A stretch of DNA of 64,000 nucleotides. It comes from Paracoccaceae bacterium. Lineage in GTDB: Bacteria; Pseudomonadota; Alphaproteobacteria; Rhodobacterales; Rhodobacteraceae. Made by a program: the position numbers and the translations under genes. Of this stretch, positions 19,688 through 32,841 are shown in pieces (the stretch's first letter is position 1; every line of letters starts with the position of its first letter). The notes below the pieces were generated by a model, which saw nothing but the letters and a program-made list of their open reading frames with translations, did not search any database and was not told the origin of the DNA. The DNA lies in the NCBI GenBank assembly GCA_016744015.1, contig JADGFD010000007.1, positions 62,001 to 126,000 on the forward strand. The letters run 5' to 3'.

Positions 19688-20701
19688 TCAGGGCTCAATG
19701 ATCACCTTGCCATCGCTCACCTGTGTGGCGGCTGCCAGCTGGCCAACCAGCTCCCCAAGCTTGATGCGTGCGGCTACATCCGTGCGCCAGCGCCCATCGG
19801 CAAAGCGGGCCTGCACCTCGCCCACCACCCGCATCTGGTCCGCAGGCGGGGTGGTGCGCATCCAGTTGGTCAGCCAAAATCCCTCAATTTTCTTACCCAT
19901 AAATATGAGCTGGCCAATTTGCGTGAGCGCGGGCGGGTTGGCGCCAAGGTTGCCGTAAACCACCCAACGCGCGCCATTTGGCATATTGGCAAATACCTGC
20001 TCCGAGGTTTGATCGCCCACCGCATCAAGAAACACGCGCGGCTTGAGAGCCCGGCCGGCTTTGCTGAAATCTGCCGCAAAGCTATCAGAGGTAACGTCCA
20101 GCACCTCAGTCGCCCCCAGCGTTTTCAGTGGCGCAATGGCCTCTGACCGCCGCACCAGCGCTATGGTTTCCAGCCCCAGATCCTGCGCCAGCCCGATCAT
20201 CAGCTTTCCAAGTTGGCTGGCCGCAGCCGAGATCACCAGCGCGGACTTGGCTTGCGCAGCAATATCGACCATCGCCATCGCCGTAAGCGGATTTACGATC
20301 TGCGCCGCGCCGTCATTATCAGAAATATCATCACGTAGCGGAATGCAACTCATGGCCTCGCACAGCACATATTCGGCCCAAGCCCCCGCCGCCATTGCCA
20401 CAAACGCCACGCGCTTACCAGCCAGTCCCTCAGCCCCCGCGCCCACCTCCACCACATCGCCGCAACCTTCAAATCCCGCCGCCGCGCCCTTTACGCGCGG
20501 CTGACCATACTCACCTTTTATAAAGTGCAAATCAGACGGATTAACCGACGCCGCCCGCAGTTTCACCACCACCTGCCCCGCGCCCGCTACGGGCATGGGC
20601 AGCTCTGCCGCTTCCAGCCAGTCCGCTGCATTTTCAATGTGCGGCCCCGTGGCCTGCCCTGAATATCCGTCTTCTTTCAAAACCACAGCAAACATCGGCA
20701 T
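19688..20701 (-). CDS. Zinc-independent MDR alcohol dehydrogenase-like oxidoreductase
   Basis: A 337-residue medium-chain reductase. The GroES-like domain is at residues 1-125 (VVKLRAASVNPSDLHFIKGEYG, GFEGCGDVVEVGAGAEG). The Rossmann domain contains ALVISAAASQLGKLMIGLAQDLG, where the usual glycine-rich loop is altered to SAAASQLG. Cysteine zinc ligands are not in place, so a quinone- or enoyl-reductase-like reaction is likely. It is the last gene of a long minus-strand array starting near 31.9 kb and lies 9 bases after the hydrolase gene. Substrate unknown. Confidence 0.82.
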   Translation of the reverse strand: MPMFAVVLKEDGYSGQATGPHIENAADWLEAAELPMPVAGAGQVVVKLRAASVNPSDLHFIKGEYGQPRVKGAAAGFEGCGDVVEVGAGAEGLAGKRVAFVAMAAGAWAEYVLCEAMSCIPLRDDISDNDGAAQIVNPLTAMAMVDIAAQAKSALVISAAASQLGKLMIGLAQDLGLETIALVRRSEAIAPLKTLGATEVLDVTSDSFAADFSKAGRALKPRVFLDAVGDQTSEQVFANMPNGARWVVYGNLGANPPALTQIGQLIFMGKKIEGFWLTNWMRTTPPADQMRVVGEVQARFADGRWRTDVAARIKLGELVGQLAAATQVSDGKVIIEP

Positions 20702-20710
20702 TCCTTTCGG

Positions 20711-21574
20711 TTATAAAAATTCAAGCAAGGCCGCCAGCGTTTCTTCCGGCGCTTCTTCTGGCAAAAAATGCCCCCCCGGCACCGCCTGCCCGCGCACATC
20801 CTGAGCCACTTCCCGCCAAGTGGCAAGCACATCATAAGCACTGCCAACAAACCCCGCCGCGCCCCAAAGCGCCAAGAGCGGCATGGAAAGCTTTTGGGTG
20901 CTAGCTCGATCATGCTCAAGGTCTATCCCGGCCGAGGCGCGGTAGTCCTCACAGCTGGCATGAATGGTTTCCGGATTGCTAAAGCAGCGCAGATATTCAG
21001 CATGGGCTTCGGGCGTAATGGCATCCCCGGTGCGGCCCCATGCGCCGAGTTTTGTGCGCAGGTAATAGGCTGGGTCTTCGCCGATCAGCTTTTCGGGGAA
21101 TCCTTGTGGCTGAATAAGAAAAAACCAGTGGTAATAGGCCCTTGCAAACCGCATATCGGTGGTTTCATACATATGAAGCGTCGGGGCAATATCCAGCACC
21201 GCCAGCTTTTCAACCCGCGCCGCGTGGTCACGCGCCAGCCGGTGCGCCACCCGTGCCCCGCGATCATGGCCAACCAGTTTAAAGCGCTCAAACCCAAGCG
21301 CCGCCATCACTTCAACCATATCCTGCGCCATTGTGCGCTTTGAATACGGCGTGTGGTTCGCATCACTCTCTGGTTTCCCGCTATCCCCATAGCCACGTAA
21401 ATCCGGCAGGACCACAGTAAAATGCGCGGCCAAAACAGGGGCAATTTTGTGCCAAATCACATGGGTTTGCGGATAGCCATGTAGCAAAAGCAGCGGTGGC
21501 CCCGAACCGCCGACGCGCAAGTTTATCTCAGTGCCGGAGGTTTTAATCCGGTGTTCCTGAAAATTGGCAAACAT
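20711..21574 (-). CDS. Alpha/beta hydrolase, fluoroacetate dehalogenase-like (haloacetate dehalogenase family)
   Basis: A 287-residue alpha/beta hydrolase. The nucleophile elbow VGHDRGAR has Asp (D104), not Ser, which marks dehalogenases and epoxide hydrolases. The residues that define fluoroacetate dehalogenase are all present: R105 and R108 for the substrate carboxylate, H149-W150 (AYYHWFF) and Y211 (CEDYRA) as the halide pocket, and H269 (PGGHFL) as the base. The oxyanion loop is LLHGYPQTHV. The family hydrolyses short 2-haloacids to 2-hydroxyacids, but some members act on other substrates. It overlaps no neighbour; it starts one base after the aminotransferase stop. Confidence 0.85.
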   Translation of the reverse strand: MFANFQEHRIKTSGTEINLRVGGSGPPLLLLHGYPQTHVIWHKIAPVLAAHFTVVLPDLRGYGDSGKPESDANHTPYSKRTMAQDMVEVMAALGFERFKLVGHDRGARVAHRLARDHAARVEKLAVLDIAPTLHMYETTDMRFARAYYHWFFLIQPQGFPEKLIGEDPAYYLRTKLGAWGRTGDAITPEAHAEYLRCFSNPETIHASCEDYRASAGIDLEHDRASTQKLSMPLLALWGAAGFVGSAYDVLATWREVAQDVRGQAVPGGHFLPEEAPEETLAALLEFL

Positions 21575-21575
21575 T

Positions 21576-22907
21576 TTAAGGTGCTCCCTCGGCCAGCACC
21601 TCTAAAATGGACGTTTTCAGCATCTCGACCATTCCGTCTATATCCGCTTCATCCATGATAAACGGCGGCGCGAGCAACACGTGGTCGCCGTATTGCCCGT
21701 CAATCGTCCCCTGCATCGGGTAGCACATCAGGCCGCGCGCAAGGGCCGCTTTCTTGATTTTAGGGGCAATTTTTAGCGCAGGATCAAAGGTGGCCTTACT
21801 TTCCCGATCAGCCACCAGCTCTACCCCCCAGAAAAGCCCGCGCCCGCGGATATCACCCACATTGGGGTGCTGCCCCAATGCCGAAACCAGCGCCTTTTCC
21901 ATATAGACCCCAAGCGAACGAACATTCGCCAGCAACCCGTCATCCACAATCCGCTCCAGCACCGCCAGCCCGCAGGCCGCCGCCACAGGGTGGCCCATAT
22001 AGGTGTGCCCGTGTTGGAAAAACCCGCTGCCCTCGGTGAGGGTTTGGTAAATCTCGCCCGAGCACAGCATCGCCCCAATCGGCTGATACCCGGCCCCAAG
22101 CCCTTTGGCGATGGTCAAAATGTCAGGCCGCACCCCCTCTTGCTCGCAGGCAAAAAGCGTGCCGGTGCGGCCCATGCCACACATGACTTCGTCCAGAATG
22201 AGCACTACGCCGTAGCGGTCACAAATCTCGCGGATGCGGGCAAAATAGCCCTTAGCGGCTGGCACGGCGCCCAAGGTGGCCCCCACCACAGGCTCCGCCA
22301 CAAAGGCCATAACCAGCTCTGGCCCAACCCGCAAAATCTCGGCTTCCAACTCGTCCGCCGCACGCAGGGCATAGGCCTCAGCGCTCTCGGCCTCACCGCG
22401 CAAACGATACTCATAGCAGGGGCTAATATGGGTCATATTCAGCAGCAAAGGTGCAAACTGCCCGCGCCGCCATTCATTGCCGCCCGCGCTCAAAGCGCCC
22501 AATGTGTTGCCATGATAGCTTTGCTTACGGGCAATCACATGGCCACGCTCGGGCTGGCCTTTTTCTACAAAATACTGCCGCGCCAGTTTAATCGCGGCCT
22601 CCACCGCTTCTGACCCGCCCGAAACCAGATAAACCCGCTCTATCCCCTCCGGCGCATGGGCGATCAGCTTATCGGCCAAAGCTTCGGCAGGGGCAGACGT
22701 GAAAAAACCAGAATGGGCAAAGGCGATCGCATCTATCTGAGCTTTAATCGCATCCGCCACATGGGCATCAGAATGCCCAAGGCAGGACACCGCCGCGCCG
22801 CCAGCATCAAAATAGCGCTTTCCGTTGCTATCAACCAAATAGCAGCCATCACCCAAAGCCGCTTCGGGCATGGGGGCAGGGGTGCGGTGGAATATGTGGT
22901 TGGCCAT
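21576..22907 (-). CDS. Class III aminotransferase (omega-amino acid or beta-amino acid aminotransferase type)
   Basis: A 443-residue PLP enzyme of fold type I. The cofactor lysine is K268 in LTIAKGLGAGYQPIGAML, the aspartate pairing with the pyridine nitrogen is in VVLILDEVMCGMGRTG (D239), and VYLVSGGSEAVEAAIKLAR is the phosphate-binding region. The family moves amino groups from omega- or beta-amino acids to pyruvate or 2-oxoglutarate. It is immediately followed (one base gap) by the dehalogenase-like gene and preceded by BKACE, which cleaves beta-keto acids, so a beta-amino acid substrate is a reasonable inference. Cytoplasmic. Confidence 0.9.
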   Translation of the reverse strand: MANHIFHRTPAPMPEAALGDGCYLVDSNGKRYFDAGGAAVSCLGHSDAHVADAIKAQIDAIAFAHSGFFTSAPAEALADKLIAHAPEGIERVYLVSGGSEAVEAAIKLARQYFVEKGQPERGHVIARKQSYHGNTLGALSAGGNEWRRGQFAPLLLNMTHISPCYEYRLRGEAESAEAYALRAADELEAEILRVGPELVMAFVAEPVVGATLGAVPAAKGYFARIREICDRYGVVLILDEVMCGMGRTGTLFACEQEGVRPDILTIAKGLGAGYQPIGAMLCSGEIYQTLTEGSGFFQHGHTYMGHPVAAACGLAVLERIVDDGLLANVRSLGVYMEKALVSALGQHPNVGDIRGRGLFWGVELVADRESKATFDPALKIAPKIKKAALARGLMCYPMQGTIDGQYGDHVLLAPPFIMDEADIDGMVEMLKTSILEVLAEGAP

Positions 22908-23666
22908 CTAAATCCTCCAGAGTGCGCGTGCTTCATCCGCGCTCAAAACATCACTTTCGATCTGCGCTACAAGCTCATGGGTGCCCGCCGCTAGCGTGCC
23001 ATCCCGCCGCCAAAGGTTGTTTTCAAACCCAACGCGCGCATGGCCACCGGCGGCAATTGCCGCACTCACCACCGCGTGCTCAGCCTTGCCAAAAGCACAA
23101 ACGCACCAGTCGTGCACCTCTCCCAGCGCGTTCAGATAGGTTGGTAATTCATCCACCCGCGCCTCCGCGCCCGCATATCTCCCCAACACCAAAAGCACGC
23201 TTTGATTCTTGAGGCCAAATGCCCTGAACCGTGCAATATCTTCGGGCGAATACAGGATATGCTGCACATGGATGCCCTCATCCGCAGCCCAATCATAAAA
23301 CCGCCGCGCCTCGGCGTTTTCTTCAGGCGAAAATTCGCGCCACGCAACACTTACAGCCTTGGGCAGCACCGCCTCAACACAGGCGATTTGCGCGGGCAGT
23401 TCAAAGACCCCCGCCGATTCTGTGGTGATCTGCACCAGCATCCCCGGCGCGGCTTCGTCTATCGCCAATGTTGCCGCGCGATAAAGCCCGGCATCTAGAC
23501 TATGCGCACCGTTGGTATCGCGCACGTGCAGATGCAACACAGCCGCACCTGCATTTTGGCAAAGCGCAGCTTCCGCCGCGATCTCTTCAAGGTTCATCGG
23601 CAGATTGGCATGCTCAGCCTTGCCCCGCCGCGCCCCGTTTGGCGCGGCGATCACCATTGGTTTCAT
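22908..23666 (-). CDS. BKACE family enzyme (beta-keto acid cleavage, DUF849)
   Basis: A 252-residue TIM-barrel protein. It opens with MVIAAPNGARRGKAEHANLP and has the zinc-binding HxH pair H45/H47 in AAVLHLHVRDTNGAHSLD, the central feature of the family. A later conserved block is ARVGFENNLWRRDG. BKACE enzymes condense a beta-keto acid with acetyl-CoA or a CoA donor and split it to acetoacetate and a new acyl-CoA. It is about 20-50 residues shorter than many members. It is sandwiched between UspA and the class III aminotransferase with 1-3 base gaps, so they are co-transcribed. Confidence 0.85.
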   Translation of the reverse strand: MKPMVIAAPNGARRGKAEHANLPMNLEEIAAEAALCQNAGAAVLHLHVRDTNGAHSLDAGLYRAATLAIDEAAPGMLVQITTESAGVFELPAQIACVEAVLPKAVSVAWREFSPEENAEARRFYDWAADEGIHVQHILYSPEDIARFRAFGLKNQSVLLVLGRYAGAEARVDELPTYLNALGEVHDWCVCAFGKAEHAVVSAAIAAGGHARVGFENNLWRRDGTLAAGTHELVAQIESDVLSADEARALWRI

Positions 23667-23669
23667 AGC

Positions 23670-24098
23670 TCACTCGCGAATCACAAATACTGATTGCTTG
23701 GCGTGCCGCACCACCCGCGCTGCGTTTGGCCCCAGCAGGTAATCTTTGGTTTCGGGACGGTGTGAAGATAGCACAATCAGGTCAGCCCCAAGCTCATCAG
23801 CAGATTTGATAATCCGCTTATAGATCGTCCCATGGCGCACATAGCAGGTGCAATCAATGTCGCTTGGCACGTTGTTGCGCGCCACGGCCTTCAGTTCATG
23901 CTCAGCATGTTCCATAGCCTTTTGCGCATAATCTTTCGGAAAGAAAGACCCCACCATCGCCATACCAAAATCTGGCACCACGGCAAAAAGATAGAGCTTG
24001 GCCCCATCTTTTTTGGCAAAATCAATCGCCGTTGGCAGCGCCAATTTCCAAGAGCTTTCCTGATTGATATCAACCGGAACAAAAATTTTCTTATACAT
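23670..24098 (-). CDS. Universal stress protein UspA-type, TRAP-associated
   Basis: A 142-residue Usp with the fold opening MYKKIFVPVDINQESSWKLAL. The ATP loop is in LIVLSSHRPETKDYLLGPNA followed by ARVVRHAKQSVFVIRE. This form, in which a SSHRPE-type loop replaces the classic GxxG, is usual for Usp proteins encoded next to TRAP permeases (TeaD of the ectoine transporter is the known example, regulating uptake). It lies 11 bases downstream of the TAXI permease gene, supporting that role. Confidence 0.9.
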   Translation of the reverse strand: MYKKIFVPVDINQESSWKLALPTAIDFAKKDGAKLYLFAVVPDFGMAMVGSFFPKDYAQKAMEHAEHELKAVARNNVPSDIDCTCYVRHGTIYKRIIKSADELGADLIVLSSHRPETKDYLLGPNAARVVRHAKQSVFVIRE

Positions 24099-24109
24099 GC
24101 TTTGCCCTC

Positions 24110-26728
24110 CTAGGCCATGTTTTCTTCAAGCTTGCGCGCGCGGCCCTTTTGCAAGAACCAGATGAATGCGAGTAGCAATAGCGCCGGAATATAAAAGAGT
24201 TCTTTCCATGGGCGCTCCGCATCCACTTCAACATTTAGCACTTTCCAGTCAAAATCAACCGAGCGTTCCTGTGCATAGCCGCCGAAAACAACATTGTCGA
24301 CAATCCAGCCGCCATCGGATTGGGCAAAGGCAATGCCAGCGTTTTTCTCCAGCCTTGCGGTGCCATCACCATCGGCTTGCGCCCCGAGCGGCAGCTCGAC
24401 CGTTGTTTCCACCATTTTAAAGGTGTTGGGGTTTTCGCCAGACATCCGCACTCTCAGCACGCTGCCATCAGGGGCCTCTGTGGCTAGTCGGGAAATCTCG
24501 CTTGCGGCTGTGTCCACATAGGGCGCTTCATACATGTCCAGCCAAAAACCGGGCCTAAACAGGGTGAAAGCAATCAGCAGAAGGCCAACGCTTTCCCACA
24601 GGCGACTTTTGGTAATAAACCAACTCTGCGTCGCCGCTGCAAATAGCAGCATCGCAATGGTGGCAATGATAAACACAAACACCGCTTTCCCCGGAGTCAC
24701 ATCTATCAGCAACAACTCGGTGTTGAAGATAAACAGGAACGGCAAAATCGCTGTCCGCACATCATAGCTAAAGCCGATGATACCGGTTTTAATAGGGTCG
24801 CCTTTGGAAATAGCCGCCGCGGCAAAAGCCGCAAGGCCTACGGGCGGTGTATCATCCGCCAAAATCCCGAAGTAAAACACAAACATGTGCACCGCGATCA
24901 GCGGCACAATCAGGCCTGACTGCGCGCCAACCTCAATAATCACCGGCGCCATCAGCGAGGTGATCACGATATAGGTGGCCGTGGTTGGCAGGCCCATGCC
25001 CAGCACAAGGCTAAACAGCGCCACAAAGACCAGCATCAACAGCAGGGAGCCGCCGGAGATAACCTCGATCAGCTCACCAATCACTTGGTGTGCACCTGTG
25101 AGCGACACGGTGCCCACAATAATACCCGCGGTGCCGGTGGCAACGGCAATGCCGATCATGTTGCGCGAACCGGCAATCATCCCGTCTAGGAACTCTTTCC
25201 AGCCAGCAGCCCAGTTGTTCAGGCCCTCACCCCGTAGCATAGCCTTAAGCGGATGCTGCGTGAGCATCACAAAGATCATCGCAAAGGTCGCCCAAAAGGC
25301 CGAAAGGCCGGGTGACAAGCGCTCAATCATCAGGTTCCAGATCAGCACCACCACAGGCAAAATGAAATATGCACCGGTTTTGGCAATCGGGCCAGGCATG
25401 GGTAGCTCTACAAAGGGGGCGTTGGGGTCGTCAACCTCAAGGTCCGGATAGTTGGAGGCCCATTTCAGCAAGCCAAGGTAAGCCATAAAGAACAAGGCCA
25501 TCATGCCGACCATCGAGTATTCGCCGAGCAAAGGCTTAATCCAACCAAGGCCATAATAAACCGCAAGGCTAAGCCCGCAGAACACAGCAACGCCCAGCAC
25601 AAGGCCCAGCATACGTTGGGAAACGGTTTTCTTGGCTCCCGGGCGCGGCAGGCCCTCTAGGCCCATTTTGGCCGCTTCAAGGTGCACAATGTAAACCAGA
25701 GCAATGTAAGAAATGATCGCAGGCAAGAAGGCATTTTTCACAACTTCCAAATAGGAAATGCCCACATATTCTACCATCAAAAAGGCCGCAGCCCCCATAA
25801 CGGGTGGCGTTAGCTGGCCATTGGTAGAGGAGGCAACCTCAACCGCACCCGCTTTTTCAGCCGAAAAGCCCACCCGCTTCATCAGCGGAATGGTGAATGT
25901 GCCCGTGGTTACGGTGTTGGCGATGGAAGAGCCTGATATCAGGCCCGTAGCCGCCGAAGCCACAACAGCGGCCTTGGCAGGCCCGCCTTTCATGTGGCCC
26001 ATAAGCGCAAATGCCAGCTTAATAAAATAATTCCCCGCACCGGCTTTTTCCAGCAAAGAGCCAAAGAGCACAAATAGAAACACCATCGAGGCCGAAACAC
26101 CGAGCGCCAAGCCAAACACACCTTCGGTTTGCATCCAGAAGTGCCACATGGCTTTGCCAAAGCTGGCCCCTTTCCATTGCATCGCATCCGGCCAGAATTC
26201 GGCATCACCAAAGAAAACGTAAAGCAGGAAGATCGAAGCCACGATCACCATCGGCAAGCCCAGCGCGCGGAACGTGGCCACCAGCACCATAATAATCCCG
26301 ACAGCAGAGGCGGTTTTGTCAAATACTGTTGGCAGGCCCGCGCGGTCCGCGATGGCATCAGCGTTAAAGATCAGATACATGGTTGCCACAATACCGGCCA
26401 CAATCAGCACCCAATCATACCAAGGGATATAATCTCGGGGTGATCTTTTGAGGAGTGGGAAAGCAACCGTGGCCATCGTGAGGCCAAAGGCGAGGTGGAT
26501 AACCCGCGACACATCAGACGGCACATATAGCGCATTTATGCCTGTGCTCGTGGCCAGTAAGCCCGGCAAGGGAGAGGCGTTATAAACTTGCAAAAAAGCC
26601 CAAATCAGCGCCACCGCTGTAATAAACGTGCCTTGCCAGTTGCTCGGGTTCCGCGCACCGACATCTAGATCGGCGAATGCGCCAAGATCGTCTTGATCCA
26701 CGACCTCGTTTTGTTCGTTCTCGGCCAT
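24110..26728 (-). CDS. TRAP transporter permease, fused 4TM/12TM (TAXI type)
   Basis: An 872-residue membrane protein. Four helices near the start (about residues 20-150) stand for the DctQ part, then about twelve helices form the DctM part, as in TAXI-TRAP fused permeases. Blocks such as GMGLPTTATYIVITSLMAPV and FVFYFGILADDTPPVGLAAF are family signatures. Residues from about 740 to 850 form a soluble loop before a last helix, which is usual in this group. It works with the TAXI binding protein upstream. Substrate is unknown; the operon suggests a small carboxylate or amino acid. Confidence 0.93.
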   Translation of the reverse strand: MAENEQNEVVDQDDLGAFADLDVGARNPSNWQGTFITAVALIWAFLQVYNASPLPGLLATSTGINALYVPSDVSRVIHLAFGLTMATVAFPLLKRSPRDYIPWYDWVLIVAGIVATMYLIFNADAIADRAGLPTVFDKTASAVGIIMVLVATFRALGLPMVIVASIFLLYVFFGDAEFWPDAMQWKGASFGKAMWHFWMQTEGVFGLALGVSASMVFLFVLFGSLLEKAGAGNYFIKLAFALMGHMKGGPAKAAVVASAATGLISGSSIANTVTTGTFTIPLMKRVGFSAEKAGAVEVASSTNGQLTPPVMGAAAFLMVEYVGISYLEVVKNAFLPAIISYIALVYIVHLEAAKMGLEGLPRPGAKKTVSQRMLGLVLGVAVFCGLSLAVYYGLGWIKPLLGEYSMVGMMALFFMAYLGLLKWASNYPDLEVDDPNAPFVELPMPGPIAKTGAYFILPVVVLIWNLMIERLSPGLSAFWATFAMIFVMLTQHPLKAMLRGEGLNNWAAGWKEFLDGMIAGSRNMIGIAVATGTAGIIVGTVSLTGAHQVIGELIEVISGGSLLLMLVFVALFSLVLGMGLPTTATYIVITSLMAPVIIEVGAQSGLIVPLIAVHMFVFYFGILADDTPPVGLAAFAAAAISKGDPIKTGIIGFSYDVRTAILPFLFIFNTELLLIDVTPGKAVFVFIIATIAMLLFAAATQSWFITKSRLWESVGLLLIAFTLFRPGFWLDMYEAPYVDTAASEISRLATEAPDGSVLRVRMSGENPNTFKMVETTVELPLGAQADGDGTARLEKNAGIAFAQSDGGWIVDNVVFGGYAQERSVDFDWKVLNVEVDAERPWKELFYIPALLLLAFIWFLQKGRARKLEENMA

Positions 26729-26786
26729 TATGTCCCTCCCAGGGTCCGGATTTTCCGGTTTTTATTGTTTGGTTTTATACGCCAAA

Positions 26787-26809
26787 GGGCGGAGGCCTAG
26801 CCCCCGCCC
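26787..26809 (-). terminator. Possible attenuator hairpin between TAXI binding protein and permease
   Basis: Just after the binding-protein stop, the minus strand has GGGCGG and CCGCCC arms with a partly paired interior and then TTTGG. The stem is good but the T-run is weak, so this may be an mRNA-stability or attenuator hairpin and not a full terminator. The analogous position in the dctPQM and agl operons of this window also has hairpins. Confidence 0.45.
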
Positions 26810-26828
26810 AATGTCTTTTAAAGCCGGA

Positions 26829-27794
26829 TTACTCCATCAGACCCAGCTCTTGGTAGGCCCGAATAGCGCCCGGATGCAGAGGCGCCGAAAGGCTGTCTGC
26901 GATCATTTCTTCCGCTTTCAGGTTTGCAAAGGCAGGGTGTAGCTTGCGGAAATCATCAAGATTACCCAAAACGGCCATGGCAACGGTGTAAACCGCTTCT
27001 TCAGAAACGCTTGCCGAGGTCACAAAGGTTGCGCCCACACCAAAGGTCTGGATGTCGTCCGGGTTACCCGGATACATGCCGCCCGGAATAGTGGCCATCC
27101 GGTAGTATGGCTTCTCTTCCACAAGCGCTGTGATTTCAGGTGAAACCGCAGGCACGATCATGGCATCACAGGAGGCAACGGTTTCTTGCGTCAAGCCCGA
27201 TGGGTGGCCAACCAGCCAGAAATAACCGTCGATAGAGTTGTCACAGAGTGCGCCAGCCGTCTCCGAAGATTTCATTTGTGCTGCAAGCGCAAGGTCACCA
27301 CGCTCCCAGCCCATGATGCCTTCAATAACTTCCCAAGTGCCCAGCGTGCCGGAGCCCGGGTTGCCCACGTTAAAACGCTTGCCCGGAATGTCAGTGATGT
27401 TGTTGATGCCGCTGTCACGGCGCGCCAGAATGGTCACAGGCTCGGCATGCACCGAAAATACAGCGCGTAGGTCTTCAAACGGGCCAGCTTCTTCGAACTT
27501 GGATGTGCCATTATAGGCGTGATACTGCCAGTCTGACTGGGCCACACCAAATTCCAGCTCGCCTGCGCGAATGGTGTTGATGTTATAAATCGAGCCGCCA
27601 GTGGACTCAACAGAACAGCGAATGCCGTGCTCGGAGCGGTTTTTGTTTACCAAACGGCAGATCGCGCCACCTGTAGGGTAATAAACGCCCGTAACGCCGC
27701 CAGTGCCGATTGAAACGAAGGTTTGCTGAGCCGAGGCTGCACCAGTCAGGGTGCCGGCTACGGTCATCGCAATCGCTAGGGATTTGAAATTCAT
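26829..27794 (-). CDS. TAXI family TRAP transporter substrate-binding protein
   Basis: A 321-residue periplasmic protein with signal peptide MNFKSLAIAMTVAGTLTGAASAQ. The mature part has TFVSIGTGGVTGVYYPTGGAICRLVNK, the TAXI opening, and RFNVGNPGSGTLGTWEVI, the ligand-loop block. The ATG at 27794 has GGAGGATAAC directly upstream; a longer open frame reaches 27986 but has no signal-like start. TAXI proteins bind glutamate, oxoglutarate or related acids; the ligand here is not readable. First gene of the transporter pair, 103 bases downstream of the TPP enzyme gene. Confidence 0.93.
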   Translation of the reverse strand: MNFKSLAIAMTVAGTLTGAASAQQTFVSIGTGGVTGVYYPTGGAICRLVNKNRSEHGIRCSVESTGGSIYNINTIRAGELEFGVAQSDWQYHAYNGTSKFEEAGPFEDLRAVFSVHAEPVTILARRDSGINNITDIPGKRFNVGNPGSGTLGTWEVIEGIMGWERGDLALAAQMKSSETAGALCDNSIDGYFWLVGHPSGLTQETVASCDAMIVPAVSPEITALVEEKPYYRMATIPGGMYPGNPDDIQTFGVGATFVTSASVSEEAVYTVAMAVLGNLDDFRKLHPAFANLKAEEMIADSLSAPLHPGAIRAYQELGLME

Positions 27795-27897
27795 GTTATC
27801 CTCCGGGATAGTTTTCCATGTGCCATCTAATACTGGGCCGGAAGCCCGACATTGGAGCGTATGCGATGGCTTAACACCCACCCCAAAACCTGAGGGC

Positions 27898-29493
27898 CTA
27901 AAACGCGCCCGCATATTCCGATTTGTCAATCCGGCAGGCGAGCACGGTAAACCCTTCGTTATTAAACGCACGATTTGCCGCACCAATCAACTCTTTCTTA
28001 TCATTTACCCACTCGGAATGGCCGCCATAGGCTTTTACAATGTTAACAATGTTACTTCCGCCAAAGTTAACGCCCAATTGTGGCAGGTTTGATCGTGATT
28101 GCTTGAGGTCAATTAAACTTAACGCCTCATCGACCAGCACCACCACGGTCAGGTTAATGCCCATGTCGCGCGCCGTTGCCAGCTCTCCAATGACCATTTC
28201 AAAGCCCGCGTCCCCCACAAAAGCCACCACTTTTGGCCCGTCAGGCCCCGCAGCCTTGGCATAGCCCATGGCCAGCGGCAGCGCGATGCCCATGGTGCAA
28301 AAACAACTCGATTGCAGTAAGGTTTGCGGGGCTTTGCAGCGCCACATCTGGCTCAGCAGTATCCGGTGCGCCCCACTATCGGCCGTAGTAATGCCACCCT
28401 CGGGCAAGGCCGACAGCATGGTATCAAACACCTGATGCGGCCCCCAGTTTACGCGCGGGGCAAACATTTTGGCCAGTTCAGCACGCGGCTCGGGTGCGCC
28501 GCCAAAACGGCGCGCCACAGCAGGCAACAGCGCCTTCACACCCAGCCCAACATCGCCGATAAACCGTACCGTCGCACCGTGCATCCCGTGCTGAATGTCC
28601 GCGTGGAGTATCTCAATCGCATGAGCATCATCCCAAGGCTCACGCCAGCCATTCCGCATTTCAATCGGGTCATAACCTGCCAAAATTATGCAATCAGACT
28701 CGCGCAAAAGCGGCAGCACAATGGTATCGGACATCGGTGAAAGCCCGTGCCCCCCAAGGCATAGCGGGTGGTTTTCATCTATAACCCCTTTGGCTTTATA
28801 GGTGGTCAAAACCGGAATCTCTCCCGCCTCGGCGAGTGACAGAATATCCGCGCCAGCCCCATGATGCACCGCCCCAAGCCCTGCCAGAATCACAGGGTTT
28901 TTAGCGTGGGAAAGCATCTCCCGTGCTGCCTCAAGCGAGGCCCCTTCTGGCCACGCCGCAGGTTCCACCGTCAGCAACGCCCGCGCAATCACCTCCACCT
29001 CGGTGCCCGCAATATCATGCGGCACATCCACATGCACCGGCCCCGGCGGGTCTGCCCGCGCGATCATCAGTGCCTTTTCAATCACCTGTTGGGCCGAGCC
29101 TTTGGCCACCTGTAACTGCGCCTTGGTGATCGGGGCCATCAGGGCGCTCTGGTCAATCACTTGGTGGGTAAAGCTCTCGGCCTCGCCGCGGCCAATGCAG
29201 CCCGAAAGCACAATCAACGGCACCTGCTCTTGATAGGCATTCGCCACCGAATTCAGCCCATTTGCCAAGCCCGGCCCGATGGTCGTCAGCAATATCCCCG
29301 GCGCGCCGGTCGCGTGGTAGCTGCCCTCGGCCAAATAGCCCGCGTTGTTTTCATGCTTACAAAGCGTGAACTCGATGCCCACCTCATCCATCGCCTGCAT
29401 CAGCAGCAAAACCTCACCACCGGGCATGCCAAAGGCGTGTCGGCACCCCGCCTCATGCAGCTTAGTCGCAATTATTTGTGCTGCTGTGGTCAT
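27898..29493 (-). CDS. Thiamine-diphosphate-binding enzyme, acetolactate-synthase-like
   Basis: A 531-residue TPP enzyme. The N-terminal PYR domain has catalytic E48 in LCKHENNAGYLAEGSYHATG. The PP domain motif is GDAGFEMVIGELATARD with VLVDEAL at the end: the second Gly of the GDG motif is Ala and the usual Asn is replaced by Asp, which still can bind the metal. It overlaps the acyl-CoA dehydrogenase stop by 4 bases (ATGA). Reaction unknown; decarboxylation of a 2-oxo acid or cleavage of a CoA-linked product is possible. It differs clearly from the TPP lyase at 7.3-9.0 kb and is likely not its paralogue in the same pathway. Confidence 0.8.
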   Translation of the reverse strand: MTTAAQIIATKLHEAGCRHAFGMPGGEVLLLMQAMDEVGIEFTLCKHENNAGYLAEGSYHATGAPGILLTTIGPGLANGLNSVANAYQEQVPLIVLSGCIGRGEAESFTHQVIDQSALMAPITKAQLQVAKGSAQQVIEKALMIARADPPGPVHVDVPHDIAGTEVEVIARALLTVEPAAWPEGASLEAAREMLSHAKNPVILAGLGAVHHGAGADILSLAEAGEIPVLTTYKAKGVIDENHPLCLGGHGLSPMSDTIVLPLLRESDCIILAGYDPIEMRNGWREPWDDAHAIEILHADIQHGMHGATVRFIGDVGLGVKALLPAVARRFGGAPEPRAELAKMFAPRVNWGPHQVFDTMLSALPEGGITTADSGAHRILLSQMWRCKAPQTLLQSSCFCTMGIALPLAMGYAKAAGPDGPKVVAFVGDAGFEMVIGELATARDMGINLTVVVLVDEALSLIDLKQSRSNLPQLGVNFGGSNIVNIVKAYGGHSEWVNDKKELIGAANRAFNNEGFTVLACRIDKSEYAGAF

Positions 29494-30677
29494 TTCACGT
29501 ATCCGCCGCGCGTTTGTGGTAGCTTCATCTCCAGCACCTTGCCTGCCACGAGGTTTTTGAGCATCTGCGCCGTGCCACCGCCAATGGTAAACATCCGTGC
29601 GTCGCGCACCATCCGCTCCAGCGGCAGGTTACGAGAATACCCCGCCGCGCCATGCATTTGCAGCGCATCATTCGTGACCTTCACGGCGTTTTCCGAGGCA
29701 ATCAGCTTGGCTTGCGCGGCCATCAGCGGATCAGGAAAGCCACTGGCCGTATGCTCGGCACTGTGCGCCGCCCGCCATATCATCGCCCGCGCACTTTCCA
29801 GCGCGACGTTCATATCGGCCAGCATCCATTGCAGTCCTTGAAACTCGGCAATCGGCCGCCCGAATTGCTCACGGGTTTTCACAAAGGACAGCGCCTGCTC
29901 ATAAGCCCCTTGCGCAATCCCCAGCGCCACCGTGCCAGCCCCAACGCGCTGGCCGTTATAAGCGTTCATTAAGCCCGAAAAGCCGCGCTTAATGCCGCCC
30001 GGCGGAATAAGCGCCATGCTGGCATCCACCACAAGATCCTCGAAAACCACCTCGGTTTCGGGAATGCCGCGCAGCCCCATGGCTGGCTCGCGCGCACCAA
30101 TTTTCAGGCCGTCATCCTCACCTCGCACCGCGATAAACCCGCCAACGCCAAGCTGCTCTCCTTTTTCCTCAACCTGCGCAAAAATCAGGTGGGTTTTTGA
30201 AACCCCACCACCTGTGATCCAGTGTTTAACACCGTTAATCACATATTTATCGCCCGCCTTTACGGCGGTCGTCGTCATCGAGGTCGCCGCAGACCCACTC
30301 CCCGGCTCGGTAATACAAATCGCAGGCTTATCCCCCGCCAAAATCAGCGGAGCAACCCTCGCTATTTGCGCCTCTGTGCCATAAGCGCAGATCGCGCCAA
30401 TGGCCCCCATATTGCCCTCAACCACTATGCGCGCGCTCACGCCGCAAACCCGCGCAATGGCCTCCACCACCAAAACCACATCAAAATAGCTCAGCCCCCG
30501 CCCGCCATGGGCCTTCGGGATCGTCATCCCCATGAAGCCGGCTTTGGTCAGCGCCTTTACGTTATCCCACGGATAGGCCTCGGTCCGGTCCACCTCTACC
30601 GCCCGAGGGGATATCACATCTGCGGCGAGCCGCATCGCCGCCGCCTGTATCGCCTTTTGGTCTTCACTCAAAAACAT
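29490..30677 (-). CDS. Acyl-CoA dehydrogenase superfamily protein, resembling 3-sulfinopropionyl-CoA desulfinase
   Basis: A 395-residue flavoprotein of the acyl-CoA dehydrogenase fold (EPGSGSAATSMTTTAVKAGD and KHWITGGGVSKTHLIFAQV in the middle domain). The catalytic glutamate is absent from both known positions: the C-terminal YEGT site reads TIGGGTAQ and the helix-G site reads YNGQRVGAG, with Gln243. Arg83 (GVSARIVVEG) and Gln243 are close to the Arg84 and Gln246 that I recall as key residues of the 3-sulfinopropionyl-CoA desulfinase of Advenella. If the parallel holds, the enzyme releases sulfite from a sulfinyl acyl-CoA and does not dehydrogenate. It lies 3 bases after a class III CoA-transferase, the partner expected for that reaction. 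The alignment is by eye. Confidence 0.75.
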   Translation of the reverse strand: MFLSEDQKAIQAAAMRLAADVISPRAVEVDRTEAYPWDNVKALTKAGFMGMTIPKAHGGRGLSYFDVVLVVEAIARVCGVSARIVVEGNMGAIGAICAYGTEAQIARVAPLILAGDKPAICITEPGSGSAATSMTTTAVKAGDKYVINGVKHWITGGGVSKTHLIFAQVEEKGEQLGVGGFIAVRGEDDGLKIGAREPAMGLRGIPETEVVFEDLVVDASMALIPPGGIKRGFSGLMNAYNGQRVGAGTVALGIAQGAYEQALSFVKTREQFGRPIAEFQGLQWMLADMNVALESARAMIWRAAHSAEHTASGFPDPLMAAQAKLIASENAVKVTNDALQMHGAAGYSRNLPLERMVRDARMFTIGGGTAQMLKNLVAGKVLEMKLPQTRGGYVK

Positions 30678-30680
30678 CCA

Positions 30681-31865
30681 TTAGCCTTTCCCGAGCCAAT
30701 CTTTCATCACGTCTTCTGTATCTGCCCCGCACAAAGGCGGCGCGTTTCGATAGGTTACCGGCGTTTTTGAAAACTTAACCGGATTGGCAATCAGCTTTAC
30801 GGGGCTGTGTGGGTGGTCCATCTCCACCACCATCTCCCGCGCCGCCACTTGCGGGCTGGCAAACACCTCGGCAAGGTTATTCACCTCACCGCAAGGCACA
30901 TTATTTGCTTTCATGGCGGTGAGCATTTCATCTTTGCTCCGCTCCGCAAACAACGCCTCTAGCTTAGGCAACAGCACATCACGATTTGTAATCCGGTTGA
31001 TATTGGTGGCAAAGGCCTCATCCTCGGCCATTTCTGGCGCGCCCAAAATCTCGCAAAATCGGCCAAACTGGCTGTCATTACCCACCGCCACAATCACATG
31101 GCCATCTTTGGCTTCAAACACTTGATAGGGCACAATATTGGGGTGGCCGTTGCCCCTTCGCTTGGGCAACTCGCCCGACTGCAAATAATTCGTGCCTTCA
31201 TTGATCAGCCACGCAATCTGGCTATCCACCAGGGCCACATCAATCTGCTGGCCCTCGCCGGTTTGGTCGCGGTGCCGCAAAGCCGCCATCACCGCGCTAG
31301 CTGCATACATGCCGCACATCACGTCAGCAATGCCCACACCCACTTTCATTGGCGCGCCATCAGGCTCGCCCGTCAGGCTCATAATGCCACCATAGCCCTG
31401 CGCCATCAGGTCATACCCAGGTAGGGCCGCATTTGGGCCCGTTTGGCCAAAGCCGGTAATAGAGCAATAGATAATGCTGGGGTTGATTTTGCGAATCTCG
31501 TCATAATCCAGCCCGTACTTCTTCAGCCCGCCGAGCTTATAATTCTCCACCAACACATCCGCCTTGGCGGCCAGATCCTTAATCAGCGCCACGCCCTCTG
31601 GGGTGGTTAAATCCACCGCCACCGAGCGCTTATTGCGGTTCGCCGCCAAATAATACGCGCTCTCGCTGGTTTCATTACCTTCAGCATCCTTCACATAAGG
31701 AGGCCCCCATTTGCGGGTATCATCCCCCGCGCCGGGCCGCTCGATTTTTACCACATCGGCACCATAATCACCCAGCAATTGCGTGCTGCTTGGCCCCGCC
31801 AATATGCGTGACATATCCAGCACTCTTACGCCGGTCAGCGGCCCTTGTTTTGTGGTGTTTTGCAT
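30681..31865 (-). CDS. CaiB/BaiF family class III CoA-transferase
   Basis: A 394-residue class III CoA-transferase. It opens LTGVRVLDMSRILAGPSSTQLLGDYGADV, the family signature, and has the catalytic aspartate in the block LPGYDLMAQGYGGIMSLTGEP (D of GYDLMAQ). It transfers CoA from a donor such as succinyl-CoA to a carboxylate. The ATG at 31865 is preferred; a longer frame to 31907 runs into the divergent promoter. It is the first gene of the minus-strand catabolic array and directly precedes the desulfinase-like protein. Donor and acceptor cannot be read from sequence. Confidence 0.92.
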   Translation of the reverse strand: MQNTTKQGPLTGVRVLDMSRILAGPSSTQLLGDYGADVVKIERPGAGDDTRKWGPPYVKDAEGNETSESAYYLAANRNKRSVAVDLTTPEGVALIKDLAAKADVLVENYKLGGLKKYGLDYDEIRKINPSIIYCSITGFGQTGPNAALPGYDLMAQGYGGIMSLTGEPDGAPMKVGVGIADVMCGMYAASAVMAALRHRDQTGEGQQIDVALVDSQIAWLINEGTNYLQSGELPKRRGNGHPNIVPYQVFEAKDGHVIVAVGNDSQFGRFCEILGAPEMAEDEAFATNINRITNRDVLLPKLEALFAERSKDEMLTAMKANNVPCGEVNNLAEVFASPQVAAREMVVEMDHPHSPVKLIANPVKFSKTPVTYRNAPPLCGADTEDVMKDWLGKG

Positions 31866-31965
31866 CTTAATTCCGTCCTCTCCCCCAGCATAGCGCCAGT
31901 ATTTCATATTAAAAGTGACTTATTTTGCCATTAGTGTTAGCTATTCTTACAAAGAAAGGCCCCCT

Positions 31966-32841
31966 ATGAACCTACAGCAGCTCAAATCCCTCGTTGCGAT
32001 TTACGAGAACAATAGCTTTTCCGCCGCCGCCGACAAGGTCTCGCTGAGCCATTCCGCCATTTCATTGCAAATTCGCACGCTGGAAGAGGAATTTGGCCAG
32101 ACCCTATTTGACCGCTCCACCCGCCCCGCCACGCTTACACCTACTGGAAAGGCAACCGCCCTAGCAGCGCAAAAGGCGCTCAAAATGGTCAACACAGTTA
32201 AGCTGATCGGTGCGGGCCAGCAACACAGGGATCAAATCTCCTTTGGTATTGTTCCCACCGAAGCTCAGCATTTGCTGCCCGTGGTTCTACGAGAGCTGCA
32301 ACAGCGCCAGCCCGGCATTCGCATCAAGGTGAAATCGGAACTATCCGGCACCCTTGCCCTACAAGTCCTTAACCTTGATCTAGATTTCGCCATCCTCACA
32401 GCCCCGATTTCGGCCTTGCCAGAATTGCAAGTGCAGGAGCTTGTGATCGAGCCACTTTATGTAATCGCACCCAAACACCTGAAAGCGGAGTCCGACAAAG
32501 CCCTGCTCAGCACCCAACCCTTCATCGCCTTTGAAGCGATGACATGGATGGGTCATCAAGTGTCTGCCCGCCTACAATCCCGTGGAATTCGGGTGAATGA
32601 AATTATGGAGGTGGATAGCCTTGACGCCATTGAGAAAATGGTGCGTGAGGGGTTTGGCGTCTCCATTGTTCCCCAGCGTTTCCTTGCGCCACCTTTGGCG
32701 CGCCACCTCAACGTGGTGCCATTTTGCAGCCCCCAAGAAACTCGCCGCCTGGTGCTGGTTCATCGCGCCGGTGAGGAAGCCGACCTCCCCATCACCAATA
32801 TTCGCCGGATTATCGAGACCCAAGCTGCCACTTCCCCTTGA
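31966..32841 (+). CDS. LysR-type transcriptional regulator
   Basis: A 291-residue LysR regulator. The helix-turn-helix is at residues 1-60 (MNLQQLKSLVAIYENNSFSA, then AADKVSLSHSAISLQIRTLE). The effector domain follows with IVPTEAQHLLPVVLRELQQRQPG, and the late block GFGVSIVPQRFL. It is transcribed divergently from the CoA-transferase across about 100 bases, the usual arrangement for control of the neighbouring operon in response to a pathway intermediate. Start at 31966 gives the standard LysR N-terminus; the frame reaches back to 31915 without a likely start. Confidence 0.93.
   Translation: MNLQQLKSLVAIYENNSFSAAADKVSLSHSAISLQIRTLEEEFGQTLFDRSTRPATLTPTGKATALAAQKALKMVNTVKLIGAGQQHRDQISFGIVPTEAQHLLPVVLRELQQRQPGIRIKVKSELSGTLALQVLNLDLDFAILTAPISALPELQVQELVIEPLYVIAPKHLKAESDKALLSTQPFIAFEAMTWMGHQVSARLQSRGIRVNEIMEVDSLDAIEKMVREGFGVSIVPQRFLAPPLARHLNVVPFCSPQETRRLVLVHRAGEEADLPITNIRRIIETQAATSP

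Follow-up and report, generated by a model that had tools for sequence, protein, structure and literature searches.

Fluoroacetate dehalogenases (FAcD) carry two arginines that clamp the carboxylate of the substrate. In RPA1163 of Rhodopseudomonas palustris (3r3u and many further PDB entries), these are presumably Arg111 and Arg114, while His280 is named in PDB entry titles. The passage on this enzyme in PMC5000767 names Asp110, His155, Trp156 and Tyr219. Other members with solved structures are Alr0039 of Nostoc sp. PCC 7120 (3qyj), DAR3835 of Dechloromonas aromatica (8sdc, 8sdd) and FAc-DEX FA1 of Burkholderia (1y37, 3b12). For the Nostoc enzyme, also called NOS0089, the primary source cited in the review PMC11022551 is Khusnutdinova et al. 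2023. In a review table (PMC11022551), the substrates of this enzyme (3qyj, Alr0039, NOS0089) include fluoroacetate, difluoroacetate and two others, and both it and DAR3835 are listed as assayed defluorinases. According to a passage in PMC12350541, two assayed defluorinases also act on alpha-chloro acids, while the brominated substrate tested there was not attacked, so the natural substrate of the enzyme described below need not be fluorinated. Where PMC11812338 describes the cluster of Caballeronia S22, FAcD is placed next to FlK, an aconitate methyltransferase and CrcB.

The window analysed here, a stretch of 64,000 nucleotides, contains a minus-strand ORF (20711..21574; ATG start, 287 aa) whose product is best described as a putative fluoroacetate/haloacid dehalogenase, as judged from residues, PDB sequence matches and a structural model of this alpha/beta hydrolase. 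We consider it highly probable that the gene encodes a hydrolytic alpha-haloacid dehalogenase of the FAcD family that is accessory in its genus, occupies several loci there, and in this case lies near the end of what is probably an organosulfur (sulfinate) operon. Pfam assigns the protein to general alpha/beta hydrolase families alone, and no NCBIfam model scored above its own cut-off for it; the matches that inform the assignment are to solved structures. The best PDB sequence match is 3qyj, over the full length (5.5e-124), followed by 9c9f, 8sdc, 4nvr, the RPA1163 entries and FA1. The original prediction was that D104, R105, R108, H149, W150, Y211 and H269 reproduce the FAcD active site, and all seven are found at these positions. 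D128, which that prediction left unnamed, completes the Asp-His-Asp triad of fluoroacetate dehalogenases (D104, H269, D128), next to the two-arginine clamp beside the nucleophile (R105, R108) and, as residues present, the His-Trp-Tyr halide pocket (H149, W150, Y211). All eight positions are identical to 3qyj and 8sdc in residue-by-residue alignments, an agreement far beyond chance given a full-length match of this significance. The roles of these residues are assigned by homology and are to be read as putative. D104 aligns with D107 of DAR3835, which the title of entry 8sdd describes as trapped as a glycolyl ester, and H269 aligns with H274, the residue mutated in that entry according to the same title.

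An AlphaFold2 model (34 sequences, single chain; mean pLDDT 96.4) predicts the FAcD fold, including the cap domain, over the whole chain. Its superposition on 3qyj gave 0.7 Å over 287 residues (Z 50.1, 65% identity), a whole-chain value that bears indirectly on the displaced halide pocket by which the original prediction was to be refuted. Alr0039/NOS0089 resembles the window's dehalogenase end to end and in all eight residues, but differs in host and gene neighbourhood, and NOS0089 has been assayed whereas the present enzyme is known from its sequence and model. DAR3835 (51-52% identity, 0.8-1.1 Å; 0.8 Å for 8sdc) also has the eight residues in 8sdc, although about half of its sequence is different. 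Modelling against RPA1163 had been proposed as a check, and the model superposes on these entries over its full length at about 1.0 Å (whole chain; Z 45.7-47.4, 50-51% identity), residues 1-287 lying on 7-298, so that RPA1163 differs by five more residues over the aligned chain. FA1 likewise superposes over the full length (1.0-1.2 Å, 45-46% identity; Z 45.5 for 1y37) but is more distant in sequence. A Salmonella 'putative acyltransferase' (4nvr; 52% identity, 0.8 Å) has W where the dehalogenase has H149. With an assayed defluorinase as closest solved relative, and with fold and pocket residues in agreement, the claim that this hydrolase is of the FAcD type is borne out.

The chemistry and substrates of the enzyme we infer from these relatives. 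D104 would attack a short 2-haloacid at its alpha-carbon while R105 and R108 hold the acid, and the halide would depart into the pocket formed by H149, W150 and Y211. Such an acid would be fluoroacetate, chloroacetate or possibly 2-halopropionate. H269 and D128 would then activate water, leading to release of the hydroxyacid (glycolate or lactate). A glycolate oxidase-like pair is present on the same contig, its best GlcD match scoring 458 bits, below the cut-off of 568.

Relatives at 54-74% identity are spread over many phyla among the 80 named loci that we compared (the best 80 of 567 confirmed). The full eight-residue set is found at 76 of these 80 loci and W at position 149 in the other four; as one of the fetch patterns contained D104, R105 and R108, this comparison tests mainly the other residues. 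In a search of 101 genomes, 36 had a match to the dehalogenase, and the full set occurs in 25 of 29 loci from this search (28 span at least 277 residues; L009 is partial). The four that differ have P149 (L025), E128 (L027 and L030) or Y149, F150 and F211 (L029). Relatives with W instead of H149, namely 4nvr and the four named loci, represent a close sister group of the same fold, so the pocket is not invariant among relatives this similar in sequence. Trp-for-pocket-His relatives like the Salmonella protein were noted at L137:10001-10861, L124, L126 and L128. Within the genus, the six other copies scanned, one of them partial, retain all eight residues. By these counts the eight-residue set is the norm of a family in which it is sometimes broken nearby, and its retention in the window's dehalogenase is partly telling. 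Phage records contained no match to the dehalogenase, and 328 plasmid records had one, all below 60% identity. Across the 15 pairs of six same-genus copies, dN/dS was 0.08-0.17 throughout, values that are approximate and reliable only in direction because dS exceeds 1 in 12 of the pairs. The gene is under purifying selection and its function has been kept.

The dehalogenase belongs to a tight minus-strand run of genes (19688-31907) behind a divergent LysR-type regulator (31915..32841, plus strand; profile matches). The run begins with a class III CoA-transferase (30681..31907; profile matches), followed by a 3-sulfinopropanoyl-CoA desulfinase-type protein of acyl-CoA dehydrogenase fold (29490..30677) and an acetolactate-synthase-like thiamine-diphosphate enzyme (27898..29493) that falls below all curated cut-offs shown. 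Next are a TAXI-type TRAP solute-binding protein (26829..27986; TIGR02122 on residues 67-382), a fused TRAP transporter permease (24110..26728; TIGR02123 above cut-off) and a universal stress protein-like ORF of 142 aa (23670..24098), whose counterpart in the same-genus genome G007 matches UspF/UspG models below cut-off. A member of the beta-keto acid cleavage enzyme family (BKACE; 22908..23666; PDB relative 2y7d) and a class III aminotransferase (21576..22907; NF005685 above cut-off) complete the upstream side, the latter ending 1 bp from the dehalogenase, and 9 bp downstream lies an MDR-superfamily reductase (19688..20701; Pfam ADH_N/ADH_zinc_N). The TAXI ORF as listed, with a TTG start, shares 89 bp with the gene of the thiamine enzyme; its true start is probably downstream, since the TIGR02122 match begins at residue 67.

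The desulfinase-type protein scores 640.5 against the curated cut-off of 600 (NF042439), and its closest PDB relative is 5af7. Its R83 aligns with R84 of 5af7, the position at which the Advenella enzyme has an arginine that we take to be catalytic. In the account given in PMC6370202, a CoA-transferase and a desulfinase of Variovorax turn 3-sulfinopropionate into propionyl-CoA and sulfite. Together, the score, the structural relative, the arginine position and this precedent indicate that the array is most likely a pathway for an organosulfur (sulfinate) acid. A literature search on desulfinases combined with TRAP transporters and sulfinate found no paper. We also considered the MDR protein as a 2-haloacrylate reductase, for which the PDB reference 1wly ranks only 35th (5.8e-9, versus 9.4e-89 for the best match, 3pi7). 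A haloacrylate route joining this reductase with the dehalogenase was dropped, as its nearest relatives are 3pi7 and mitochondrial enoyl reductases.

The placement of the dehalogenase was compared across 13 genomes of the genus, including the window's own (G000). G003 is 100% complete, and G006, G008, G009 and G010 are 73-81% complete, which makes absences in these four soft. The dehalogenase and the desulfinase-type protein each occur in 7 of the 13, and in G000 and G007 the dehalogenase lies behind the array aminotransferase. G003 has the whole array in the same place and with the same neighbours, the reductase following directly on the aminotransferase with no trace of the dehalogenase between them. 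The array is likewise present in G004 and G012, and no dehalogenase was found behind its aminotransferase; G012 carries the gene on a different contig. Of the five operon copies with a readable aminotransferase end, two carry it. Elsewhere (G006, G011 and G012) an acetate-CoA ligase and ATPases of liv-type ABC transporters directly precede the gene, the G006 ligase scoring 1003.6 against a TIGR02188 cut-off of 725; G002 and G005 have the ligase locus and no dehalogenase there. The order acetate-CoA ligase, then dehalogenase is seen at L035:654-4488, L037:6011-9845 and L036:5786-8686. The contig of G008 starts near the upstream half of the dehalogenase, with fab genes following. G010 has the gene at yet another locus, with an upstream neighbour that, from a motif in its first residues only, we take to be a mannose-1-phosphate guanylyltransferase.

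The same MDR reductase adjoins the dehalogenase in five of the seven genomes that have it (G000, G006, G007, G010 and G011, not G012 or G008). As a general partner of the family it was rejected: among the best 80 of 567 loci, a close MDR gene stands beside the dehalogenase only in L065, apparently the G010 contig (identical in length and in its protein match), and the other MDR matches there are weak and at least 2.3 kb away. A tree with 15 rows groups the seven copies of the genus (support 90/96, one fork inside poorly split) and also pairs the two operon copies (92/90). The tree and placements fit one gene of the genus that has changed places, gain and loss not being separable from them, and the dehalogenase seems to have joined the sulfur-compound operon only in some relatives. 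The original prediction had read the TAXI-transporter array as a hint that a 2-haloacid or related small acid is used. This does not hold, as the signature enzyme of the operon is of the desulfinase type and the gene is missing behind the aminotransferase in three genomes (G003, G004 and G012), once at the same chromosomal position. With the dehalogenase at other loci elsewhere, nothing about its substrate can be read from the transporter, and contexts that vary this much within one genus indicate no single physiological substrate.

These comparisons bear on several other accounts of the gene. It could be a working step of the operon, in which a short acid, halogenated or sulfinated, enters through TAXI and is dehalogenated and desulfinated in one pathway. 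The shared strand, the gaps of 1 and 9 bp and the like arrangement in G007 are consistent with this, as are the TAXI/TRAP genes beside a relative in L101 (one of the best 80 of 567 loci), although these are divergent. However, the intact operon of G003, the operons of G004 and G012 (the latter with its copy behind the acetyl-CoA synthetase on another contig) and the count of two in five make a dedicated step decidedly improbable. The L101 genes (L101:2436-6709, uncultured Chloroflexus) comprise TAXI and TRAP permease genes transcribed divergently from the dehalogenase relative. An account we regard as possible, if somewhat unlikely, is that the enzyme guards acetate assimilation by hydrolysing haloacetates before acetyl-CoA synthetase can convert them to toxic haloacetyl-CoA; that it lies in the sulfinate operon would then be incidental. 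The gene's position directly behind the acetate-CoA ligase in G006, G011 and G012 points this way, as does the presence in the window's genome of a protein related to HAD type II haloacid dehalogenases. Against it, about 28 kb separate the synthetase from the dehalogenase in that genome, no dehalogenase adjoins the synthetase there, and the synthetase loci of G002 and G005 have none either.

More broadly, the gene may be a movable guard or scavenger that enters different carboxylic-acid operons (those with acetyl-CoA synthetase in three relatives, the sulfinopropionate-type CoA pathway here) and destroys halogenated look-alikes of the operon substrates, mostly with an MDR reductase as partner; we think this quite unlikely. 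Finally, the scaffold could serve another reaction, for instance one in which a non-halogenated small acid ester or epoxide is hydrolysed, given the breadth of the family in taxonomy and context (best 80 of 567 loci) and related PDB entries that depositors named acyltransferase or epoxide hydrolase. This is very improbable, since no pocket residue is missing (H149 included) and an assayed defluorinase shares 65% identity; moreover, some of the 'epoxide hydrolase' entries were solved with MFA bound. Haloacid hydrolysis by an accessory FAcD-family enzyme is the reading we prefer.

The locus also differs from a cluster dedicated to fluoroacetate. As far as PMC11812338 describes it, Caballeronia S22 has fluoroacetate-resistance genes adjoining FAcD, but the window's dehalogenase lacks these neighbours: CrcB, a fluoroacetyl-CoA thioesterase and an aconitate methyltransferase were absent among the genes scanned around it. 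FlK had no match in the window's own genome, and a dedicated utilisation cluster was rejected because no resistance genes are adjacent and CrcB is on another contig. CrcB occurs in each of the 13 genomes of the genus, whether or not the dehalogenase is there, and its presence therefore says nothing on the latter. Near the dehalogenase it had no match at 1e-5 in the 80 loci (best 80 of 567), a weak negative as only 41 of them span at least 15 kb. Fluoride riboswitch matches below the gathering score were obtained in 2 of the 13 genus genomes, and none in the other 11. Relatives of HAD type II haloacid dehalogenases are encoded in 10 of the 13 (the G011 protein scores 192.9 against a cut-off of 125.4); the one in the window's genome lies behind fabA-fabB-fabI (L178; G000:C5:72837-73514).

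In summary, the enzyme assignment of the original prediction stands, and its inference from the neighbouring TAXI transporter does not. The locus is a clear case of a misleading gene neighbourhood, in which conservation of the neighbouring transporter does not extend to the enzyme. The dehalogenase is an ordinary member of an already characterised enzyme family, with a placement history of interest, if a modest one. With it, an uncultured alphaproteobacterial lineage joins those that have a defluorinase-type enzyme close to NOS0089, for which a review reports attack on difluoroacetate (PMC11022551).
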